Virus record (IMG/VR): IMGVR_UViG_3300020186_000043
Span: 1 to 39,748 of that record
Source of the DNA: a virus
Length of the DNA: 39,748 nucleotides
Strand: one strand, 5' to 3'
Shown here piece by piece: positions 530 to 33,820 of this stretch. Numbering within the stretch: position 1 is the first letter of the stretch; each line of letters begins with the position of its first letter. Position numbers and translations under genes: made by a program. The notes under the pieces were generated by a model. The model made no database searches, was not told the origin of the DNA, and was given only the letters and a program-made list of their open reading frames with translations.

Positions 530-2341
530 ATGGCGACAGAAATCAAAGACGGCGCGGCTACACAGAAGTATCTAAAAAGTACTGGCGCGGGCAGCATTGG
601 GGATGGCTTCGTAGTCGAGCATCTCGACACCAATAGCGCGGCCATCAAAACCGCAGTTGAACTAATTGACAACGCCATTGCGGGTGCAGAAATGCAGGTG
701 GACGTTATCACCATGCCTACCGTCACCATTAGCGATGGCGGCGGCTCGATTACCATAGATGGCACAATTAGCGTTAGCGCACTCCCCGCGGGAACCAATA
801 ACATTGGTGACGTGGATGTGTTAACGTTGCCTGCGTTGGCGGCAGGAACGAACAATATCGGTGACGTAGACATTCTCACCATTGCCGCGGGTGACAATAA
901 TATAGGTAATGTGGACATTGTCACGTTGCCTGCACTCCCCGCCGGAACGAATAATATCGGTGATGTAGATGTTCTTACGCTACCAGGTACGGCGGCAGAG
1001 GCTACGGCGTTGCCATCTCTGCGCGTAGTTGTGGCTGCGGATGATGGCGTTGATACTCACACGTTGCAAACCGACGCAAGCGGTAATCTCAAAGTCAACA
1101 TTCAGGCTGGCTCAAGCGCTGGGACTGAGTACACCGAAGGCGCAATTGACACCACGATTACAGGTACGGCGATTCTCGGCGAGGGGCCGAGTGACACGCT
1201 AACGCCGCTGAAACTAGACGCCTCTAGTAATCTTTATGTCAACGTGGCGGCGGGTGGCACGTCAGGCGTGCAGTACACCGAAGCCGACATTGACGCGACG
1301 ATTACGGGTACGGCAGTGATGTGGGAGGATGCCTCAGATACGCTACGCGTGGCGTCTGCGACCAAGCCTCTGCCTACCGCGATTATTACAGCTCTTCCCG
1401 CTGGAACTAGCAACATCGGTGACGTTGACATTCTGACTATCGCGGCGGGCGACAATAATATAGGTAATGTGGACATTGTTACTGTTCCCGCCGACCCGTT
1501 TGGCGCGACGGCTGATGCGGCTGTTACTGCGGGAGCGACGGGTTCTATTTCCGCAAAATTGCGCTCAATTTCTCGTGACCTCGTGGCTAACGTTGTATTG
1601 GCAGCCGGGGCTAATGCGATTGGCAAACTGGCGGCAAATACTGGCGTTGACATCGGTGATGTTGATGTGCTAAGCGTTGTCCCTGGAACGAGTGCAACCT
1701 CATTGGGCAAAGCAGAAGATGCAGTTCACACCAGTGGTGATACTGGTGTGATGGATTTGTCTGTACGCAAGGATACGGCGACTGCTCTAGCTGGCACTGA
1801 CGGCGACTATCAGCCGTTGATCACCGATGCGAGCGGCAGATTGCATGTAACTGTTGGTAACATTGCAGCCGGAACTGCCCACATCGGCGCGGTGGGTTCA
1901 TCCGACACACTAATTGAGGTGGCGCCAACAATGGATACATCGGCTTATGCAAGTGGCGATGTACTGATTAGCGAGACAGATATTGCAAGTGCAGGTCGGG
2001 CTACGGGTACAACGATTATTCTCCAAAGCCTATTGTTAGTAGACAAGGATGATCAAAAGGCGGCAATGACGTTTTACTTCTTTGACCGCACGGTAACGTT
2101 TGGCACAAAGAACGCCGCGCCTACTATTAGCGATGCAGACGCGGCTTTCTACATGGGGCATGTCGATGTTTTAGCGGGGGACTGGGATGATTTAGGCGGC
2201 GTTTCGGTCGCAACGCTTCGCGGTATTGGGCTAGAGATGAAGCCGAATGCAACGAGCATCTTTTTCACCGCGATAACAGGCGGCACGCCTACTCATACAG
2301 CTTCAGGCTTAATTTGTAAATTTGGCTTCCTAAGATCGTAA
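530..2341 (+). CDS. Repeat-rich tail/fibre structural protein
   Basis: This is a 603-residue protein. The motif NIGDVD(V/I)LT or a close variant recurs about seven times (roughly residues 88-145, 290-318 and 372-380). A second motif, YTE-x-x-ID-TITGTA followed by a DTL segment, occurs twice near residues 205-275. These short Gly/Asp/Val/Thr repeats are typical of elongated beta-structured phage fibres. The last 150 residues lack the repeats and look like a compact beta domain, possibly receptor binding. It lies 10 bases after the preceding small tail gene, with GGGG 6 bases before the ATG. A virion surface role is inferred; no catalytic motif was seen. Confidence 0.8.
   Translation: MATEIKDGAATQKYLKSTGAGSIGDGFVVEHLDTNSAAIKTAVELIDNAIAGAEMQVDVITMPTVTISDGGGSITIDGTISVSALPAGTNNIGDVDVLTLPALAAGTNNIGDVDILTIAAGDNNIGNVDIVTLPALPAGTNNIGDVDVLTLPGTAAEATALPSLRVVVAADDGVDTHTLQTDASGNLKVNIQAGSSAGTEYTEGAIDTTITGTAILGEGPSDTLTPLKLDASSNLYVNVAAGGTSGVQYTEADIDATITGTAVMWEDASDTLRVASATKPLPTAIITALPAGTSNIGDVDILTIAAGDNNIGNVDIVTVPADPFGATADAAVTAGATGSISAKLRSISRDLVANVVLAAGANAIGKLAANTGVDIGDVDVLSVVPGTSATSLGKAEDAVHTSGDTGVMDLSVRKDTATALAGTDGDYQPLITDASGRLHVTVGNIAAGTAHIGAVGSSDTLIEVAPTMDTSAYASGDVLISETDIASAGRATGTTIILQSLLLVDKDDQKAAMTFYFFDRTVTFGTKNAAPTISDADAAFYMGHVDVLAGDWDDLGGVSVATLRGIGLEMKPNATSIFFTAITGGTPTHTASGLICKFGFLRS
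893..921 (+). repeat. 29-bp exact repeat inside the fibre gene (copy 2 at 1451-1479)
   Basis: The 29 bases from 893 to 921 recur exactly at 1451-1479. They encode the DNNIGNVDIV segment of the fibre repeat. The flanking repeat units have diverged at silent and conservative positions while this stretch is unchanged, which suggests a recent exchange between repeat units of the same gene. Confidence 0.8.
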
Positions 2342-2352
2342 GGATTTAAACG

Positions 2353-2427
2353 ATGGCATACAAAGACACCTATCTATTAATCAACGAGGAACAAATCATT
2401 CGCGCTGTCACGGTGGCGGTAGCATGA
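2353..2427 (+). CDS. 24-residue micro-ORF coupled to the LamG gene
   Basis: An ATG at 2353 opens a 24-codon frame (starts MAYKDTYLLINEEQ) that ends in a TGA overlapping the ATG of the next gene (ATGA at 2424). An AGGA lies 9 bases before its start. It may be a true micro-protein or a leader whose translation delivers ribosomes to the LamG gene, which has no clear ribosome-binding site of its own. No family is recognised. Confidence 0.45.
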   Translation: MAYKDTYLLINEEQIIRAVTVAVA

Positions 2428-3158
2428 CTTTACTAGCGGCAACGCGCCGAACATTGCTCTCCCCAAATTTACCGTGGTGGCGTAATAGTTCCCCTCTCTC
2501 CAATTCGCTCGTTGGCTACTGGAAACTAGACGAGGCTAGTGGCAATGCCCTAGATAGTCTTGGATCGAACACCCTAACTGACACCAATACGGTCACAAGC
2601 GCGACTGGCCTCGTCTATTCAACGGCGAGAAGTTTTGCTTCAGCGAGTAGCGAATATCTGAACATTGCCGACAATGCCGCATTAAGTACAGGAGATATAG
2701 ACTTTTGGTTTTCAGGTTGGTTTTATCTGAATTCCTCTCCAAACACCTCAGGGTACGACATTTTAGGCAAATGGGATGTCGCCAGTAATTCAGAATACTT
2801 CCTGGAACTCTATACAGCCGCATCTCAGGTTCATTTCAGATGGGGTGTCTCTAGCAATGGAACGTCTGCAACAGGCGATCTGGACAATATAGAAACGGTT
2901 GCTAACACTACCTGGCATTTCTTTGCCTGCTGGCATGATAGTGTCGCTAATCAGACAGGATACCGATTAAACAGCCAAACAAGAACACTTTCCTACAGTA
3001 CGGGTGTACGGGACGGTACATCTGCATTTACCATAGGTCGTGCGATAACGACACGATATTTTGATGGTCGGATTGGCCCGGTTATGATGGGGAAAGGCTA
3101 TATTCCGACAAGCGACGAATTGGACTTTCTATATAATAATGGCCTGGGGCGACCGTGA
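2424..3158 (+). CDS. LamG/concanavalin A-like lectin-fold protein
   Basis: This 244-residue protein matches the LamG-like jelly-roll pattern. It has an opening LVGYWKLDEASGN near residue 28, a repeated-strand core with SEYLNIAD, FWFSGWFYL and a mid-domain W-HFFACWHD strand, and a closing DGRIGPVMM strand followed by a helix-like tail. In phages this fold usually sits in fibres or tail spikes and binds carbohydrate. It is the last gene before the terminator at 3264, so it closes the late operon. No signal peptide is seen, which fits a virion component. The glycan target cannot be told from sequence. Confidence 0.85.
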   Translation: MTLLAATRRTLLSPNLPWWRNSSPLSNSLVGYWKLDEASGNALDSLGSNTLTDTNTVTSATGLVYSTARSFASASSEYLNIADNAALSTGDIDFWFSGWFYLNSSPNTSGYDILGKWDVASNSEYFLELYTAASQVHFRWGVSSNGTSATGDLDNIETVANTTWHFFACWHDSVANQTGYRLNSQTRTLSYSTGVRDGTSAFTIGRAITTRYFDGRIGPVMMGKGYIPTSDELDFLYNNGLGRP

Positions 3159-3665: not shown

Positions 3666-3998
3666 TTACTCGTCGGCTACCTCGATGGCTTCCAAGTGGT
3701 CAGCTACCTGTCGCCATGTTGTGCCGATGCCCCGGAAACTATGGGCGGGGCCGGCGTCTAAGCGGTAGAATCCCTTGATGCCGTTGGTTTCCAGTAATCC
3801 TACGTCGCTTCGGTTGGCAGCAACCCATTGTTGGAGCCACGATTGCGTGATACTGCGGGGTTGATTGTTGTTCATGTTCTCCTCTTGGGTGACAAGTGCG
3901 TCTAGTAGTTCTATCATCGTGACTTCGTAGCGTGCTGCTAGTACCTTGAGCCGTCGTCGTGTGCTGTCCAGTACTTTGATGGTGGTTACGTCGTTCAT
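3666..3998 (-). CDS. Ribbon-helix-helix-like N-terminus joined to an unknown domain, with a likely internal start
   Basis: This is a 110-residue frame. Residues 4-38 (TTIKVLDSTRRRLKVLAARY and onward) fit a ribbon-helix-helix DNA-binding fold: a short basic strand and two helices. Residues 42-110 are a separate segment with LQQWVAANRSD and YRLDAGPAHSFRGIG. A strong ribosome-binding site, GAGGAG, lies 3 bases before an in-frame ATG at 3875 (residue 42, MNNNQPRS). The second segment may therefore also be made alone as a 69-residue protein. The start at 3998 overlaps the stop of the upstream gene (ATGA). Function is probably regulatory, by inference from the fold. Confidence 0.7.
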   Translation of the reverse strand: MNDVTTIKVLDSTRRRLKVLAARYEVTMIELLDALVTQEENMNNNQPRSITQSWLQQWVAANRSDVGLLETNGIKGFYRLDAGPAHSFRGIGTTWRQVADHLEAIEVADE

Positions 3999-4366
3999 TT
4001 GTATTCTCCTTCGAGTTCGCGCATGGCTGCGACGGCATCCCGGCGATGGCTCTCGTAGTCTGCGTCATTGCCCCATCGCGCACTGTACTCTGCAATGCGC
4101 TCGCGCACGTCGCCTTCGTCAATCCCCAGCTTGGCGGCGAGCGCTTCTGCTTCGTCGTCGGTGGCCTCGCTGTCACTGATATATCTGGCCCACCAGTCGT
4201 AGGTGTGCTGGCTGGCGATGTAGGCGTTTTCTTCCTCCGACCAGACAAACTGGCCGTCTCTGAGTGCGCCTGTGTTGCCAATGAGGTCGGCGACCCAATT
4301 GACGCCGTTGTCGCTAATGATGGTCAGGTCTGTGCGCTCGTTGGTTTCTGTGATGATGATGTTCAT
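3995..4366 (-). CDS. Acidic protein of unknown function
   Basis: This 123-residue protein begins with a short beta segment (MNIIITETNERTDLTII) and continues with an acidic, helix-rich region containing two tryptophan patches (NWVADLIGN and YDWWARYISD). It has a strong translation start: AAAAGGAG lies 7 bases before the ATG, within a 27-base module repeated before two neighbouring genes. Its end overlaps the next start by 4 bases. The pattern SEATDDEAEALAAKLGI looks like a small helical bundle. No family is recognised. Confidence 0.75.
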   Translation of the reverse strand: MNIIITETNERTDLTIISDNGVNWVADLIGNTGALRDGQFVWSEEENAYIASQHTYDWWARYISDSEATDDEAEALAAKLGIDEGDVRERIAEYSARWGNDADYESHRRDAVAAMRELEGEYK

Positions 4367-4387
4367 TTTGGTTCTCCTTTTGGCTAG
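4361..4387 (-). repeat. Repeated translation-start module (other copies at 4801-4827 and 5126-5152)
   Basis: Three successive leftward genes are preceded by nearly the same 27 bases, read on the minus strand as (CTAGC)CAAAAGGAGAA-(A/C)CAAAATGA. The copies at 4361-4387 and 5126-5152 differ by one base; the copy at 4801-4827 differs at a few outer positions. Each carries the ribosome-binding site and the start codon. These are probably duplicated gene-start cassettes. Confidence 0.85.
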
Positions 4388-4473
4388 GTGTTTCGGCCTT
4401 CTGGCCTCATTCAGCGCCGGTCAATTTCCGGTCAGACACCGAGCAGTTTTGCGACTTGCTCAGGTCGATTTAA

Positions 4474-4806
4474 CTAAACCAGTTTTTTGTTCTTGAGGTC
4501 GTCAATCAATTTTGACGCCTCGACGGAGGTGAGTCCGCGAGCAACCATCGCTCGCAAATTGTGGATGGCCTCGAAGGCCTGAGCCTTCAGCGTTGAAAGA
4601 GTAATCGGATTGCGACGAAGGCGAATGTTCAGAAGTTCAGCGTACCACAGCGAGACCTGGCCCTCAAGCATTTGGATTTTCACTTCGGACCCTCCGTTCT
4701 GGCGTAATTCCTCAATTGTGACTTCCAGTCCAGCGAAATAGGGAGCCGATTCGATTCCGTCAATCATGCTGTTGATATAGTCGAGTTGCTTCTGTGTGGC
4801 GGTCAT
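4474..4806 (-). CDS. Helical protein of unknown function
   Basis: The start chosen is the ATG at 4806, because AAAAGGAG lies 7 bases before it and the repeated start module precedes two neighbours in the same way. The frame is open for 26 more codons upstream, but those overlap the previous gene and lack a ribosome-binding site. The 110-residue product begins MTATQKQLDYINSMIDGI, an opening seen in several phage and plasmid helical proteins. It is almost entirely helical, with a basic patch (LNIRLRRNP) and a charged C-terminus. No domain assignment is made. Confidence 0.75.
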   Translation of the reverse strand: MTATQKQLDYINSMIDGIESAPYFAGLEVTIEELRQNGGSEVKIQMLEGQVSLWYAELLNIRLRRNPITLSTLKAQAFEAIHNLRAMVARGLTSVEASKLIDDLKNKKLV

Positions 4807-4855: not shown

Positions 4856-5131
4856 GCTATTTGCAGCATCTGCGCTGCGTACAAATTGAGCGTATGTCAT
4901 GCCTGACGGTTGGGCGACGGGTGCGACTGCCTCGGTGTCAATGGTGAGGGCGTAGGATGCAATCAGTTTGTTGACCTTTTCGATATTGACCTGCCAAGCC
5001 TTTTTGTCAGCGACCCACTTGCCATCCATGTAGCTTTTGATGTAGTCCTTCATTGCGAAGGTTTCGCCGGTGAGCATGTCGCCGGTGAGTTGTAGTTTTA
5101 AGCCCTTGCGGTTGGTGATGTTGATGTTCAT
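4847..5131 (-). CDS. Small protein with a KDYIK...GKW...KKAW motif
   Basis: The ATG at 5131 is chosen for its AAAAGGAG ribosome-binding site in the repeated start module; 43 further open codons upstream contain a promoter and are not expected to be translated. The 94-residue protein has a beta-strand start (MNINITNRKGLKLQLTG) followed by AMKDYIKSYMDGKWVADKKAWQ. The pattern of a helix ending in GKW and then KAW recalls a small nucleic-acid-associated module found in phage and plasmid proteins and in HARP-like domains. This is a resemblance only. The C-terminal 40 residues look helical and then disordered. Confidence 0.75.
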   Translation of the reverse strand: MNINITNRKGLKLQLTGDMLTGETFAMKDYIKSYMDGKWVADKKAWQVNIEKVNKLIASYALTIDTEAVAPVAQPSGMTYAQFVRSADAANSDF

Positions 5132-5178
5132 TTTGTTTCTCCTTTTGGCTAGTGGTTCGTTTGTTATGCCTTGATACC

Positions 5179-22155: not shown

Positions 22156-22201
22156 AAGGGGAGGTCAATTCGCAAAACGCGAATCGACCTCCCCTTTTTT
22201 T
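22156..22201 (+). terminator. Strong intrinsic terminator at the early/late boundary
   Basis: Arms AAGGGGAGGTC-A-ATTCGC (22156-22173) and GCGAAT-C-GACCTCCCCTT (22179-22196) close an AAAAC loop with one internal mismatch. A run of seven T (22195-22201) follows. This is close to an ideal terminator. The next gene starts only about 23 bases later with no room for a promoter, so late genes must be reached by read-through or antitermination. Confidence 0.95.
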
Positions 22202-22223
22202 GTTGGCACAACGAAAGAACATT

Positions 22224-22820
22224 TTGGCAACCAAACCTATTCCCGAAGTCAAAGTCGTCGCGATTGAACCCGAATTGGTGACGGACATTGCCGCGACGCT
22301 GACAACGCCAGGTGCGACGCCAAAGGGTGAGCCGCCGCCGACAATACCGACGACGCTTCTGTCGGAACTGTCATCGGCTATACCCCTACCCATTCCCGTC
22401 ACCGCGCCGGAACCGCTGCAAGTCGAAGTCGTGGGGGGTATCCCTGACCCGAAAACTTCTGTGATGACGCCTGAGCCGACGCCAGCGATAACACCGCTTC
22501 AGACTGTTACAACCTCGACAACGGCACCGACTCCCGCACTCGTGACGAAGGGACAAGGCACGACGTTACAGCCGACGACAACGGAAGCCGAAGACCTAGT
22601 TAGTGCGGGGCAGCGGACGATTAACCGCACTTGGGAATTCACTCAAAGTGCTTTGACAATAATGCTGACGCTATTATTTGCCTATTGCAAGATATATGGA
22701 ATAGTCGATACGTCCGTTGACATCGCTTTTACTTACGTTCTTGCCACATATCTGACGCGCTCAAACCATACCAAACAGGGTGGAATCCCGCCAGGTGGCT
22801 ACACGGGCCGCATATTATGA
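22224..22820 (+). CDS. Pro/Thr-rich membrane-anchored protein of the lysis region
   Basis: The start is uncertain: no ATG occurs before codon 89 of the frame. A TTG at 22224 has GAAAG six bases before it; a TTG at 22200 lies in the terminator T-run. From 22224 the product has 198 residues. Residues about 20-130 are rich in proline and threonine with repeated TP and TTT patches, like an extended cell-wall stalk. Two membrane segments follow (FTQSALTIMLTLLFAYCKIY and IAFTYVLATYL), then a short tail. Position before small membrane proteins and the endolysin suggests a lysis or wall-spanning role. Confidence 0.6.
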   Translation: MATKPIPEVKVVAIEPELVTDIAATLTTPGATPKGEPPPTIPTTLLSELSSAIPLPIPVTAPEPLQVEVVGGIPDPKTSVMTPEPTPAITPLQTVTTSTTAPTPALVTKGQGTTLQPTTTEAEDLVSAGQRTINRTWEFTQSALTIMLTLLFAYCKIYGIVDTSVDIAFTYVLATYLTRSNHTKQGGIPPGGYTGRIL

Positions 22821-28309: not shown

Positions 28310-29848
28310 GTGCCGCACTTTATTCGTTACCGCAGGTCATTACGTAGGCAACGGCGTTTTGTCTTTAGCAAGACAGCGACGGGCGCGAGCTACAACCAGA
28401 GCGCGGGCGGAACCGTTACCCCCGCAGGCGCGATTAGCAAAGGTATCGCCAAGTTATTTGCAGGAACGTTAACGACCGCCGGTGCGCTGATTCGCCTAGT
28501 CGCTAAGTTATTCGCGGGGACGCTAACGAGTAGTGGCACACTCATTCGCAACGCAGGCAAAACGCTTGCAGGCACTTTAACAACCAGTGGAACCATCACG
28601 ACCGCACGCGGCTACGCACGCTCACTTGCGGGGACGCTGACAAGTGCTGGGGTACTCAGTACCGCACGCGGCTATGTTCGCTCCTTTGCAGGCACGTTGA
28701 CGACAGCGGGAAGCCTAGTACGGGCAACGGCGAAGGCTTTGGCAGGCACGCTAACGAGTAGCGGCGTTGTGACAAGAGTACGCGGTTATTTTCGCTCCCT
28801 TGCCGGAACGCTTACGAGTAGTGGCGCATTGTCCAGGACAGTCGTCTATGCCCGTTCACTCGCTGGCACATTAACGAGTAGTGGCGCGCTTACTACCGCG
28901 CGCGGTTATGTGCGCTCACTCGCTGGGACGCTCACCAGCGCGGGCGCACTAAGCCGTAATGCAGCAAAGGCACTTGCTGGCACGCTCACCAGCAGCGGTG
29001 TACTGAGCAGAGCGCGAACGTATGCCCGTTCTCTTGCGGGTACGCTCACCACTTCCGGCGCATTGCTGCGGGCAATCGCGAAGAGCCTTGCCGGAACACT
29101 AACGAGCGGCGGCGTTGTCTCAACCGCACGCGGTTACATTCGTTCCTTTGCAGGAACGTTAACGAGTAGTGGCACTATCGCCCGCAGCATAAGTAAAGCA
29201 TTTGGCGGGACGCTTACCAGCGCGGGAACACTTGTTCGTAAAACCGCTAAACTCCTGAGCGGCGTGTTAACGAGTGCGGGTGCGCTAAGTACAGAGTTGG
29301 CTGGCGGCTTTGCCCAAGCGGTGGGCGGCACGCTTACGCTGGCAGGCGCAATCACGCGACAGACTAGCAAGAGCCTAGCAGGTACGCTCTCAAGCGCAGG
29401 CAACATCCTACGCGCCATCGCTAAGTCATTTGCTGGCACGTTGACGCCCAGCGGCACATTGCAAACGGCGCGCACCTACATTCGCTTATTTGCCGGGACA
29501 TTGACGACGGCTGGCACGCTGGCACGCAATACCGGCAAGACGCTCACGGGGTCACTTGCTCCCAGCGGCGCAATTGCTAGAGCCATCAGCAAAGCCGTTG
29601 CGGGCGCGCTGAGTTTTATCGGCACACTAACCAGGACGCTGGCGGGCAGCAGTACGGCCTTGCTGGACGTTGCGCTCAGTGACAGTGCCGTCAACCTAGC
29701 GACGCTAAGTGATAGCGCGGTGTACGCCGCAAGTTTGGCAGATAGTTTGGTAAACACAATTAGCCTAGTCGATAGCGCGGTGTACGCCGCGACGTTACAA
29801 AGCAGCGCGGTCTACGCCGTGACCTTATCAGATACAACGAGGACATAA
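28310..29848 (+). CDS. Fibre protein built of 22 AGTLT repeats
   Basis: The GTG at 28310 is the start given by the frame; no clear ribosome-binding site precedes it. The N-terminus is basic (FIRYRRSLRRQRRFVFSK). From residue 33 to about 447 there are 22 units of 18-22 residues, each beginning with AGTLT(S/T)SG-x-(L/I) and often continuing ARGYxRSL or AKxL. A second, shorter repeat, LSDSAVYAATL and variants, forms the last 60 residues. Such regular beta repeats make long fibres. It is likely a side or tail fibre; repeat number may vary among relatives. Confidence 0.8.
   Translation: MPHFIRYRRSLRRQRRFVFSKTATGASYNQSAGGTVTPAGAISKGIAKLFAGTLTTAGALIRLVAKLFAGTLTSSGTLIRNAGKTLAGTLTTSGTITTARGYARSLAGTLTSAGVLSTARGYVRSFAGTLTTAGSLVRATAKALAGTLTSSGVVTRVRGYFRSLAGTLTSSGALSRTVVYARSLAGTLTSSGALTTARGYVRSLAGTLTSAGALSRNAAKALAGTLTSSGVLSRARTYARSLAGTLTTSGALLRAIAKSLAGTLTSGGVVSTARGYIRSFAGTLTSSGTIARSISKAFGGTLTSAGTLVRKTAKLLSGVLTSAGALSTELAGGFAQAVGGTLTLAGAITRQTSKSLAGTLSSAGNILRAIAKSFAGTLTPSGTLQTARTYIRLFAGTLTTAGTLARNTGKTLTGSLAPSGAIARAISKAVAGALSFIGTLTRTLAGSSTALLDVALSDSAVNLATLSDSAVYAASLADSLVNTISLVDSAVYAATLQSSAVYAVTLSDTTRT
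28406..29650 (+). repeat. DNA repeat array encoding the AGTLT units
   Basis: Twenty-two related 54-66 base units occupy the gene. They agree at the AGTLTSSG codons but differ in many synonymous positions (GCGGGGACG, GCAGGCACG, GCCGGAACG), so the array is old rather than freshly amplified. It is coding and not CRISPR-like, since no constant repeat or regular spacer is present. Confidence 0.85.
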
Positions 29849-30474: not shown

Positions 30475-30771
30475 ATGGCAAACGGTTATCAAATAGGCGA
30501 TTTGGTTCGTATTGCGGGAATCTTCACCAACGCGGCGGGTACGGCGGTAGACCCCACTGCCGTTCTTGCCAAATACAAGACGCCGGCGGGCGTCATAACT
30601 ACGCTTACCTATGGCGTGGACGTGGCGTTGGTGCGCGACAGTGTGGGCAACTATCACGTGGACATCAATGCCGCCTCAGAAGGTCGCTGGCGATACCGCT
30701 TTTACTCGACAGGCACGGGCCAAGCCGCCAACGAGGAAGATTTCATCGTGTCGGGAAGCAGCTTCGATTGA
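30475..30771 (+). CDS. Small structural protein with an Ig-like beta fold
   Basis: This 98-residue protein starts MANGYQIGDLVRIAGIFTNA and ends with RWRYRFYSTGTGQAANEEDF, a strand pattern like a bacterial Ig-type or transglutaminase-adhesin domain. GGGGGC lies just before the ATG. It is probably an adhesin or fibre-tip accessory. Its stop overlaps the next ATG. Confidence 0.65.
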   Translation: MANGYQIGDLVRIAGIFTNAAGTAVDPTAVLAKYKTPAGVITTLTYGVDVALVRDSVGNYHVDINAASEGRWRYRFYSTGTGQAANEEDFIVSGSSFD

Positions 30772-31823
30772 TGCCAAACGTTTATTTGCCACAGGTGTTT
30801 GGCACCGGCCCCACCTCGCAAGGCGGCGCGTCTGTCGAACGCGTCGTCTTTGACCTCATGGCCTCCCATCCCGAACAAGGGCGCGTCGGCATGGCATGTG
30901 CTTTGTCAGCTAGGGGGCTAGCTTTTATGTTGGATTTCGGGTATAATGAAGGAGCAAACCACATAAAAAGTAGCGGAAGCGCGTCAACGCCCCGCTACCC
31001 TTTCAGTACATGCGATAGAGGCGCACGTACCATGTCTTATTCTATTCCCAACCCAACCGAACAATCAAATATCCCCTACGGCTACTGTCATTGCGGCTGT
31101 GGTCAACTGACGCACGTCCCTAATAGCAATCACCGCAAAAGCGGGTGGGTCAAAGGTGTGCCTATGCGTTACATTCGGGGACACCATAGCCCTAAGCTAC
31201 CTTTGGAGCAAGTCTTTTGGGCGCGTGTGCCTAAGCTCTCACCTGAAGAATGTTGGATATGGCAAGGAGCGGTCACGTCTGGAGGATACGGAAATATAAG
31301 GAATGAATACAAGTCGTTGAGTGCCCATCGTGTTGCATACGAGTTGCACTATGGAACAATCCCCCCCGAGTTGGTGGTGCGGCACAAATGCGACGTGAAA
31401 TTGTGTTGCAATCCCTTTCATTTGGAGATTGGCTCACATAAGGACAACTCGGAAGATATGGTACGAAGAGGTCGCAGTGCAAAGGGTGCAAGCAGTGGCA
31501 CCGCCAAAATTGCGTCATCAGACATATTGGAAATTTTGCGTTTGTACAATTCCGGTCTGACTCAAAAGCAACTCGCGCTTAGATTTGGCATTAGCCGCTC
31601 GAATATCGGACTCATCGTAAACCGACAGACATGGACGGATACCGAGGCTGTCGCAGGATATACCAAGCGCGAGCGGGCAACGAAACTCAAGAAATCCGAT
31701 ATTGAGGAGATATTCAATTTAGCCGAACAAGGATTGCTGCAAAGAGAGATTGCCGTGAAATTTGGAGTCTCCAGGAGTCGAATTGGTCAAATCTTAACTG
31801 GCCAAAGGCGGGCCGTTGAATAA
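30771..31823 (+). CDS. HNH homing endonuclease carrying a truncated CAP-gene N-terminus
   Basis: This 350-residue frame has a mosaic structure. Residues 1-45 (MPNVYLPQVFGTGPTSQGG and onward to HPEQGRVGM) match the start of the downstream CAP protein. From residue 88 (ATG 31032, MSYSIPNPTEQS) comes an HNH_3-type endonuclease: CHCGCG, AHRVAYELHYG, VRHKCDVKLCCNPFHLEIGS and HKDNSEDMVRRGR, then two helix-turn-helix units (QLALRFGISRSNIG and EIAVKFGVSRSRIG). The endonuclease may be read from 31032 alone. It is a free-standing mobile gene set into a CAP-type gene. Confidence 0.8.
   Translation: MPNVYLPQVFGTGPTSQGGASVERVVFDLMASHPEQGRVGMACALSARGLAFMLDFGYNEGANHIKSSGSASTPRYPFSTCDRGARTMSYSIPNPTEQSNIPYGYCHCGCGQLTHVPNSNHRKSGWVKGVPMRYIRGHHSPKLPLEQVFWARVPKLSPEECWIWQGAVTSGGYGNIRNEYKSLSAHRVAYELHYGTIPPELVVRHKCDVKLCCNPFHLEIGSHKDNSEDMVRRGRSAKGASSGTAKIASSDILEILRLYNSGLTQKQLALRFGISRSNIGLIVNRQTWTDTEAVAGYTKRERATKLKKSDIEEIFNLAEQGLLQREIAVKFGVSRSRIGQILTGQRRAVE
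30970..30998 (+). other. Hairpin upstream of the HNH start
   Basis: GTAGCGG (30970-30976) pairs with CCGCTAC (30992-30998), with an inner GCG/CGC. It follows a consensus-like TATAAT (30942-30947) and an AAGGAG (30949-30954) that lacks a start codon. Such a hairpin before a homing endonuclease could limit its translation, as known for T4 homing genes, which is inference. Confidence 0.45.
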
Positions 31824-32316
31824 ATTGTACTTGCCTCAGGCGTTCGGCAATGCCGCAGTTAGCAACCAAGGGGAGAATTCTGTTGCGCATGAAGTTTTTC
31901 TTTTAATGAGAGATCATCCGCTCCAGGGAAGAACGCGGATGATTTTTGACGAACGTCTGGCCGACATTGCCCATTCGCGCGTGATGAGCCAAGCGCGCGA
32001 CGGCTGGTCGGGGCATGTAGACCCACAGGGGCGTGGGCCTAATGCTTACTGTCGCATGGTAGGCTACCAACTTCCTGACTGGTATTTGCAGGATAACGAC
32101 GCGAACAACATTGAGAGCATCGCAGATTCAGGAGACGGCAGCGTCGAAGGCGTGTGGGACTCGTGGCTCGGCTCAACTGGCCATCGTATGCACATTTTAG
32201 CGACAGACAGTTTTTACAAGGCGCAAACTCAGGTTGGCATTGCGTATTACTATCTGGCGACAAGCAAGCATTTGCACTACTGGTGCATTCTTAGCGCGCC
32301 GCCGGTGGGGGAGTAG
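31816..32316 (+). CDS. CAP (SCP/PR1)-domain protein
   Basis: A TTG at 31816 overlaps the HNH stop and gives MNKLYLPQAFGNAAVSNQGE. The 166-residue protein shows CAP signatures: HEVFLLMRDHPLQGRTRM, GWSGHVDPQGRGPNAYCRM, SWLGSTGHRMHIL and VGIAYYYLATSKHLHYWCIL. CAP proteins are usually secreted and may bind lipids or cut proteins; this one has no signal peptide and probably is part of the virion or released at lysis. The ribosome-binding site is weak (AAAGG). Its N-terminus is the paralogous copy of the fragment fused to HNH. Confidence 0.85.
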   Translation: MNKLYLPQAFGNAAVSNQGENSVAHEVFLLMRDHPLQGRTRMIFDERLADIAHSRVMSQARDGWSGHVDPQGRGPNAYCRMVGYQLPDWYLQDNDANNIESIADSGDGSVEGVWDSWLGSTGHRMHILATDSFYKAQTQVGIAYYYLATSKHLHYWCILSAPPVGE

Positions 32317-32322
32317 GGGAGC

Positions 32323-32961
32323 ATGAGCGAGAAGATAAGCACGATTGGCGATTTGATACAAGACCGCACCAACCCGCGCAAGCACAACCCTCGTAACCTC
32401 AAGACGATTGTGGATAGCCTGCACGACGTGGGTTTTGCACGCTCCATTGTAATTGACGAAGACAATAACATCCTGGCCGGCAACGGCGTCACAGAAGCGG
32501 CTGCAATTGCAGGCATCGAAAAGGTAATCGAGATAGAAGCCGATGGCAATACCATTATTGCCGTGCGGCGTCGTGGCTTAACCGACGGGCAAAAGCAGCG
32601 GCTTAAATACTTTGACAATCGTAGTGGCGAATTAGCTGAATGGAATGTCGAGCAACTGTTTGCCGACATGGGCGCGGGGCTTGACCTGTCGGGCATGTTT
32701 CGCGAGGACGAGCTAGACGCGCTGCTGGCGGGGATGCAGCCGCTTGATGACCCTAATGCACATTGGCAGGGGATGCCAGAGTTTGAGCAGGATGATTTAA
32801 CGTCGTTTCGTTCGGTGCATGTTCACTTCAAGACACAGGCAGATGTAGACGCATTCGCCCAATTGATTGGGCAGGAATTGGGCAACAAAGCCCGTTCGGT
32901 TTGGTATCCTGAGGCCGAAAAAATAGATATGTATAGTGAGTTATACGTAGATGAATCCTGA
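32323..32961 (+). CDS. ParB-like protein
   Basis: The 212-residue protein has the ParB/Srx core: ISTIGDLIQDRTNPRKHNPR, LKTIVDSLHDVGFARSIVID, NILAGNGVTEAAAIAGIEKV and then VRRRGLTDGQKQRLKYFDNR. These match the ParB N-terminal fold that in phages accompanies methyltransferases or DNA-modifying systems, as in the TET/JBP phages. The C-terminal half is acidic and less conserved. It overlaps the next gene by 11 bases. Confidence 0.8.
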   Translation: MSEKISTIGDLIQDRTNPRKHNPRNLKTIVDSLHDVGFARSIVIDEDNNILAGNGVTEAAAIAGIEKVIEIEADGNTIIAVRRRGLTDGQKQRLKYFDNRSGELAEWNVEQLFADMGAGLDLSGMFREDELDALLAGMQPLDDPNAHWQGMPEFEQDDLTSFRSVHVHFKTQADVDAFAQLIGQELGNKARSVWYPEAEKIDMYSELYVDES

Positions 32962-33820
32962 TTATCCTGTTTACATTATATCCAAAGGCCGGTGGGATTC
33001 TCGTCTAACAAGTAAGGCACTTGAAAGAATGCGAGTTCCGTATCATATCGTGATAGAGCCGCAAGAATATGAGCAATACGCGGCGGTGATCGCCCCTGCC
33101 AAGATTCTCGTGTTGCCATTTAGCAACTTAGGACAAGGTTCAATCCCTGCGCGTAATTGGGTATGGGAGCATTCCTTAAGTATCGGCGCGGCGCGGCATT
33201 GGATATTAGACGATAACATTTATTACTTTTGCAGATTGCACAAAAACAGGAAGCTACACGCCGACACAGGGGCAATCTTTAAGGCGGCAGAGGATTTTTC
33301 GGATAGATACGAAAACGTGGCGATTTCGGGGATGCAATACTATATGTTCGCTAGTCAAAAGACAAAGATGCCGCCTCTCGCATTTAACACGCGTGTCTAT
33401 TCCTGCATTCTTATTCAGAACAATATCCCTTATCGTTGGCGCGGGCGATATAACGAGGATACTGACCTGTCGCTACGCGCCTTAAAAGACGGATGGTGTA
33501 CCGTCCTATTTAATGCGTTTCTCGCCCGCAAGCAACAAACCATGACAGCAAAGGGCGGCAACACCGAGTCACTGTACAAGCTGAACAACGGCGACGATGG
33601 GCGGCTTCTAATGGCGCAATCCCTACAGCAGCAGCATCCCGACGTTACCAAGATTGTCCAGAAGTGGGGACGCTGGCAGCATCATGTAGACTATCGCCCC
33701 TTCAAGAAAAACAGATTGAAATTTAAGCCTGGGATAGAGATGCCCGAAGGTACTAACAATTTCGGCATGAAGTTAGTTAAGCGCGACGCCACAGGCAAAA
33801 CGCCCGTACTAGTGGAATAA
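32951..33820 (+). CDS. TET-associated-type glycosyltransferase
   Basis: This 289-residue protein fits the phage TET-associated glycosyltransferase (TAGT) pattern: YIISKGRWDSRLTSKALERM, VIEPQEYEQYA, SIPARNWVWEHSLS, ARHWILDDNIYYFCRLHKNR with an acidic DDN metal site, LAFNTRVYSC, WRGRYNEDTDLSLRALK and MTAKGGNTESLYKLN. In phages that make TET/JBP oxygenases, such enzymes glycosylate 5-hydroxymethylcytosine in DNA. No oxygenase is in this window, so the base being modified is unknown. Its neighbour is ParB-like, as in those phages. Confidence 0.85.
   Translation: MNPDYPVYIISKGRWDSRLTSKALERMRVPYHIVIEPQEYEQYAAVIAPAKILVLPFSNLGQGSIPARNWVWEHSLSIGAARHWILDDNIYYFCRLHKNRKLHADTGAIFKAAEDFSDRYENVAISGMQYYMFASQKTKMPPLAFNTRVYSCILIQNNIPYRWRGRYNEDTDLSLRALKDGWCTVLFNAFLARKQQTMTAKGGNTESLYKLNNGDDGRLLMAQSLQQQHPDVTKIVQKWGRWQHHVDYRPFKKNRLKFKPGIEMPEGTNNFGMKLVKRDATGKTPVLVE

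Follow-up and report, generated by a model that had tools for sequence, protein, structure and literature searches.

An HNH homing endonuclease gene within a phage CAP gene that probably carried a spare 5' end of its target

Homing genes must spare the function of the gene that they enter, and the usual answers are introns, inteins and intergenic sites. In fungal mitochondria, mobile open reading frames that carry an end of the gene they enter are reported for atp6, atp9, cox2 and nad3 of Glomus, atp6 of Allomyces macrogynus, atp9 of Rhizopus and cox2 of Mortierella (PMC3630166, in which Paquin et al. 1994 is cited); according to that report, the endonuclease gene brings a foreign 3' end, the native end remains, and the hybrid gene is transcribed. 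In the mitochondria of Tremella fuciformis, 'introns with N-terminal duplication' have been described, one of six being confirmed as an intron by cDNA (PMC7315562). As for phages, the free-standing seg and mob genes of T4 are described as lying between genes, with co-conversion of their flanks, whereas mobE in nrdA of Aeh1 and mobA in T4 are given as cases of a gene split in two parts (PMC2988022). Homing endonuclease genes at the boundaries of exchange between phages are further reported to mark recombination borders, some of them interrupting genes (PMC10448857).

The phage locus analyzed here resembles the fungal mitochondrial reading frames, as these are presented in PMC3630166, in combining an endonuclease and a foreign, diverged gene end with a native remnant and a hybrid gene. 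The native end is kept as a remnant both at a CAP gene (116 of 128 nucleotides identical to an uninterrupted relative) and in five helicase stubs (0.93-0.95), and at both targets the foreign end is joined in frame to the resident body. The fungal elements are mitochondrial, encode LAGLIDADG or GIY-YIG enzymes and replace the 3' end, whereas here a phage HNH_3 enzyme with helix-turn-helix (HTH) units is involved, and the end replaced is the 5' end in the CAP and helicase genes and the 3' end in three candidate loci. The duplicated part of the host gene within the insertion is shared with the predicted introns of Tremella, for which an exchange of gene fragments by gain and loss of elements has been proposed (PMC7315562), although those are mitochondrial and the phage locus carries no intron signal. 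As with the T4 seg and mob genes presented in PMC2988022, a phage endonuclease lies near or in a gene, but here the gene is whole owing to a spare start; where PMC10448857 describes interrupted genes in detail, it is the splicing of an intron or intein that restores them, and a spare gene end is not mentioned there. No phage homing gene with a spare gene end was found in the literature searched, in which subscription journals were thinly covered; the idea is known from fungal mitochondria, and within that literature its phage version appears to be new.

The window, i.e. the whole linear virus record of 39,748 bases that was analyzed, contains a single HNH_3 gene. It lies in a plus-strand frame at 30768-31823 (351 aa) that comprises a CAP 5' stub of 128 bases (30771-30898, 42 codons and two bases of codon 43), a putative leader of 133 bases (30899-31031) and an intact HNH_3 endonuclease gene (31032-31823), and it is followed on the same strand by a complete CAP open reading frame (31816-32316, 166 aa) that starts with TTG and overlaps the HNH frame by 8 bases. 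The HNH protein has an N-terminal CHCGCG segment, an HNH core that is conserved in the alignment with its relatives, and two HTH units; it matches PF13392 (HNH_3, E 1.3e-13), HTH_3, HTH_7 and other HTH families in two stretches, and phrog_59 (7.3e-37), and no solved structure matches it by sequence at E <= 0.01. The CAP protein matches PF00188 with an E value of 5.4e-4 (21.2 bits, barely above the cut-off of 21.1). Open reading frames and domain matches thus bear out the layout given in a first-pass annotation of this DNA, namely a CAP-like start, an HNH_3 domain with two HTH units, and a TTG-started CAP gene overlapping the HNH stop. The resemblance noted there between the first 45 residues of the frame and the start of CAP also holds, since in a search of the record itself the CAP protein matches the stub at E 3e-6 (50% over residues 3-43); this match, together with the flank test described below, rules out a chance similarity of the two CAP starts. 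The HNH gene starts with the ATG at 31032, and its relatives align only from about there, so that residues 1-45 of the frame are not HNH-family protein and the stub cannot be a normal part of that family, an objection that the annotation had itself raised.

At 30908-30923 the leader has a hairpin with T residues after it, and it also contains a TATAAT, but these promoter-like and terminator-like sites do not exceed those of shuffled sequences, nor does its fold (z -1.28), and Rfam gave 0 matches at E <= 1 in 30600-32400, leader included. The GC3 values of the new CAP 5' end (0.48) and of the HNH gene (0.51) are inside the spread of the window, in which 12.7% and 10% of the chunks, respectively, are as low, and composition was therefore dropped as a proof of foreign origin.

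An uninterrupted form of the gene is present in a sister phage, L001 (IMGVR_UViG_3300020596_000029), which has one CAP gene, with which the CAP gene of the window aligns over its full length, and no HNH gene at that locus. The blastn match between the window and L001 stops at 30898 and resumes at 31948, which correspond to L001 positions 5128 and 5130. In the base-by-base comparison the left match ends after L001 5128 and the last right-side mismatch before a long identical run is at 5141, so that both junctions fall inside 13 bases, in codons 43-47. The start of the L001 CAP gene is identical to the stub at 116 of 128 nucleotides and to the start of the downstream CAP gene at only 71 of 126, whereas the L001 CAP body is identical to the downstream CAP body (31948-32313) at 358 of 366. 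These data mark the stub as the start of the resident gene and indicate that the working CAP start arrived with the HNH gene. The inserted element, of about 1049 bases, accordingly spans 30899-31947, with an uncertainty of about 12 bases at its right border, and consists of the leader, the HNH gene and a donor CAP 5' end of 44 codons (31816-31947) that is the source of the start codon; none of it is in L001, where CAP is continuous from 5128 to 5130. The resident 3' part follows at 31948-32316, with unbroken identity to L001 from a few bases past 31948, and the complete CAP-domain gene at 31816-32316 is a chimera.

The comparison with L001 thus supplies the empty site for the insertion of a homing-type HNH gene in CAP that had been proposed in the first-pass annotation, and places it, by the alignment with an HNH-less relative suggested there, at CAP codon 43. 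The annotation had also held that the two CAP 5' ends are no local copy of each other, in agreement with their identity of 68 of 127 nucleotides, and that the insertion re-supplies the 5' end of CAP, as found in the roughly 44 foreign codons joined to an L001-like body. It had, however, taken the upstream fragment as the piece carried in with the mobile gene, and here the assignment is reversed. Nine of the 42 codons of the stub differ from L001, 5 of them altering the residue, compared with 4 of 119 in the CAP body from 31957, 1 of which alters the residue; in this small sample, the differences would fit a dead stub and a maintained CAP gene.

The CAP insertion is known from one assembled record and one empty relative. 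Contig L002 is identical to the window over 5175 bases, but begins past the junction. L002 and L003, which is L001-like, come from one sample (3300020213) and both begin at the equivalent of window position 32138, as if strains with and without the HNH gene coexisted there and broke the assembly. As to the donor of the CAP start, the CAP protein matched only L001-L003 in viral contigs, with no match in named phages or in bacterial genomes, and among the HNH relatives listed none exceeded 56% identity over its best segment. In the genome scans the HNH protein had two weak matches, both in Chloroflexota MAGs; these donor scans rely on a few short peptide patterns, so that relatives can be missed, and a scan with two neighbor-gene queries returned zero matches even though one of them was L001 itself.

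We consider it likely (probability about 0.84) that an HNH homing endonuclease inserted at codon 43 of the resident CAP gene of the phage and brought with it a foreign CAP 5' end. The features expected of a homing endonuclease are found together in an HNH domain with a conserved core, a separate DNA-binding module (HTH) and the precise empty site of L001. The cleavage, homing and expression that we infer would run as follows. During co-infection, the predicted enzyme would cut the HNH-less allele near codons 43-47, and repair of the break would copy the HNH gene and the spare 5' end from the donor. At its right end the inserted piece carries a foreign copy of CAP that begins with the start codon and stops right at the point of insertion. 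The left border would be set by the predicted cut, and the right crossover by the first stretch common to donor and resident (about 23, 33, 44 or 345 codons in the cases described here). The resident start remains upstream as a stub, and the foreign start is joined in frame to the resident body, so that the HNH stop is immediately followed by a CAP gene that is chimeric but complete. By duplication, the element would achieve what introns achieve by splicing, which is unnecessary because a spare start is present.

The frequency of this arrangement was examined in HNH relatives chosen by HNH similarity alone (32 loci, the best 80 of 595 matches, 2 of them repeats, and 2 from genomes), which with the window amount to 113 loci in 108 clusters, 103 of them usable. 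Peptide likeness within about 330 bases on either side of the HNH gene was compared with 12,000 cross-locus scores. The score of the window, 85, was higher than all of these (null maximum 77), and 6 of the 206 strand tests on the 103 clusters had p <= 0.0025 (about 0.5 expected), i.e. those of the window, L024, L095, L125, L103 and L054. Two of them, L103 (a zinc-finger-like pair) and L054 (low-complexity, GC-rich frames), were judged spurious by eye. Looser BLAST matches between the flanks were seen in L130 (E 0.025) and L033 (E 0.009), and a duplication in L029 was set aside as tandem paralogs because both genes appear full length. Most of the HNH relatives in the 103 clusters show no terminal duplication, and with 6 of 206 tests the stub-bearing anatomy is a minority form among them. 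In named phages, the HNH gene overlaps or abuts the next gene in 6 of 9 regions, with flank matches at chance level.

The same anatomy recurs at a second gene. In L125 and L130 the HNH gene lies directly upstream of a DNA helicase gene (a phrog_16 match in L125) whose start overlaps the HNH stop, as in the window. Among 81 helicase loci (the best 80 of 488 matches, plus L125), an HNH gene was found just upstream in 26 and none was found in 55, which stand as the empty form of the site; 49 of these have at least 700 bases of upstream sequence. Related helicases also occur in named phages, namely Idiomarinaceae phage 1N2-2 and Alteromonas phages PB15 and XX1924. HNH-less helicases usually start with LR[DE]YQQRTIDQLYA or LRDYQQRTIDELYR (21, 14 and 11 of 59, a set that, also for the stub, L142-segment, L125-site and quick-tree AU figures below, includes the four loci L176, L177, L182 and L185). 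The resident start M(Q)LR[DE]YQQRTIDQLYA precedes the HNH gene in L133 (the L130 phage), L137, L142, L145 and L125, in five different upstream contexts, and in all five the left border of the commonest kind of HNH gene at the helicase, referred to as element A, follows QLYA. These five stubs of 42 nucleotides are 0.93-0.95 identical to the best HNH-less gene and 0.50-0.71 identical to the start downstream of them. A clear stub is lacking in 9 of the 15 loci compared, and for one more no upstream DNA is available; the left border in L147 falls at codon 2. Such stub-less forms may have arisen by decay of the stub or by conversion from upstream. Stub and HNH gene share one open frame only in L125 of the five stub-bearing loci, and their joint translation therefore looks incidental. 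A GCN-TGG motif at the insertion is common to the CAP and helicase targets, although two targets prove nothing.

In these helicases the 5' part of the target moves together with the HNH gene, whereas their 3' parts are scattered. Over residues 3-363, the 8 distinct element-A helicases are 0.86-0.97 identical among themselves and 0.51-0.80 identical to HNH-less genes, whereas over residues 363-531 the two comparisons are alike (0.68, 0.61, 0.61 and 0.43 versus 0.71, 0.67, 0.66 and 0.52 with HNH-less genes); in L142, some HNH-less gene is 100% equal in each of three segments between residues 363 and 483. Trees were built from 67 rows, 12 of them element A (8 distinct and 4 near-copies), with L125, L171, L172, L176, L177, L182 and L185 left out. 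The 12 element-A rows form one clade in the tree of residues 24-340 (100/100), whereas in that of residues 366-531 the element-A label needs 8 changes, at least 7 of them forced by starred branches, and the 12 rows come together in 0 of 200 bootstrap trees. Some clustering of the label persists there (8 changes versus a shuffled mean of 11.2), as the near-copies would cause. An earlier quick tree, which held odd rows and in which long branches were flagged, gave an AU p of 3e-48. Across 8 loci, HNH identity rose with that of the 5' part of the helicase (r 0.62, permutation p 0.009) and showed no such relation to that of the 3' part (r -0.10, p 0.58). The HNH of L125 is 75-79% identical to those of element A, and the 5' part of its helicase only 52-56%; residues 3-23 of that helicase are element-like (0.82 versus 0.65), and among the 13 segments after these, 8 lie closer to HNH-less genes and 5 to element A. 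At diagnostic sites the signal of a chimera in L125 is weak, with p from 0.02 to 0.4 depending on the cut.

A second HNH lineage has entered the helicase gene one codon beyond the element-A site. In L176, L177, L182 and L185 the HNH shares only about 43% identity with the nearest query, L171, and the resident stub is kept in all four (MLRDYQQRTIDELYRW or MLRDYQQRTIDQLYAW). The first 33 or so codons of these helicases differ from HNH-less genes (0.58, 0.53), and the sequence after them, up to residue 363, is 0.81-0.94 identical to HNH-less genes. The second lineage closely repeats the pattern of the window, with a stub, an HNH gene, a few tens of foreign codons and a resident body.

The arrangement could also result from an ordinary HNH gene located upstream of a donor CAP gene, if one-sided homing co-converted the start of CAP and left a stub, with no special cassette involved. 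Such a history would agree with the named phages, in which HNH genes commonly overlap or abut the next gene with chance-level flank matches, with the element-A loci lacking a stub, which look like ordinary upstream HNH genes, and with the variable right borders (about 23, 33, 44 and 345 codons). It accounts less well for a left border that follows the same residues (QLYA) in five contexts, and that the four second-lineage loci show shifted by a single codon, and for the recurrence of stub and spare start, which shows that the combination is not a single accident. What chiefly separates the two accounts is whether a locus with a stub can serve as the donor, and the repeated left border favors that it can; we regard simple co-conversion as a possible but doubtful explanation. 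An assembly chimera of two co-occurring phage strains might be suspected from the shared starting point of L002 and L003, but the junctions are in register within one gene, the HNH and CAP frames overlap by 8 bases, and the same anatomy appears in helicase contigs from several samples, which makes such an artifact very improbable.

Two homologous starts in tandem might also point to a local duplication of CAP, after which the HNH gene entered the first copy and the 3' part of that copy decayed. However, the stub and the downstream start agree at only 68 of 127 nucleotides, and a single L001 gene is matched first by the stub and then, in its next part, by the downstream body, the two meeting within 13 bases; no relative with two full tandem CAP genes was seen, L001 being the sole relative that shows the locus, and we give this origin very little credence. 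A self-splicing intron or an intein containing the HNH gene would be suggested by the preserved frame of the target and by the frequent occurrence of HNH genes in introns. The HNH frame has its own stop at 31821-31823 and CAP its own start at 31816 in another frame, which excludes an intein, and splicing is highly unlikely because Rfam, which may miss unusual introns, found no match and because a spare start would serve no purpose in a spliced gene.

Candidates at other genes include both ends of the target. In L024 (about 3878-4660), the 5' stub YTVDSRWDSKPAFTADQTYDR and the complete copy YTIDSRWDSTSISTAEETYQR of an endolysin-like gene (weak phrog matches) flank an antisense HNH gene; no HNH-less relative was found, the single locus returned being the same contig. 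In L095 (about 1746-2470, minus strand), a putative tail fibre gene ends with IDNSGNIRAAGTITGSVAP, and beyond an antisense HNH gene lies a diverged remnant ending with MDASGNMRCAGTVTPSVTP, a repeat of the last 19 residues of the tail-fibre-like gene. In L033 (3568-4597), the end of the HNH frame, RWKPRVREFTLADF, resembles the C terminus of the preceding gene, LWTPRIKEITLEDF, and L033 is possibly an instance at a 3' end in which the remnant has become part of the HNH frame. In the sister phage G001 (L040, G001:C1, about 1153-2290), an antisense HNH_3 gene at another gene has a diverged gene end on one side and, on the other, the resident last codons GRIL, a remnant of just a few codons; positions 22200-22820 of the window are the HNH-less form of this gene, and G001 is the only one of these four with such a third party. 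From their layout, L095, L033 and G001 look like candidate mirror images of the CAP insertion at 3' ends.

These cases raise the question of a general 'spare-end' class among the HNH homing endonucleases of phages, which would insert inside coding genes and carry the missing end, 5' or 3', with the HNH gene in either orientation, a generalization toward which we lean only slightly. If it is true, such elements would have an extra way to keep the target gene alive beside introns, inteins and an intergenic location, and a spare end would let homing genes reach conserved coding sequence without splicing. After decay of the stub they would resemble ordinary intergenic HNH genes, and spare ends could account for some of the HNH genes that touch or run into the start of the gene after them. 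Homing would then directly make chimeric proteins, with chimeric phage genes being built repeatedly and gene parts moved between lineages. Several pairs of empty and filled alleles come from this analysis.

Some differences between the window and L001 were also noticed in nearby genes. In the gene next to CAP (window 32323-32961, L001 5505-6056) the N-terminal part differs, although both copies start with MSEKI, and a later stretch, WNVEQLFADMGAGLDLSGMFREDELDA, is common; no HNH gene is present, and the difference may reflect the exchange of a module or what such an exchange has left behind. Upstream, at 28310-29848, the window encodes a 512-aa protein with many AGTLT-type repeats, whose L001 homologue has 670 aa and a different N-terminal part. 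The gene at 32951-33820 carries a TET-associated glycosyltransferase domain (PF20691, E 5.7e-48), a family name that points to possible base modification in the DNA of this phage.
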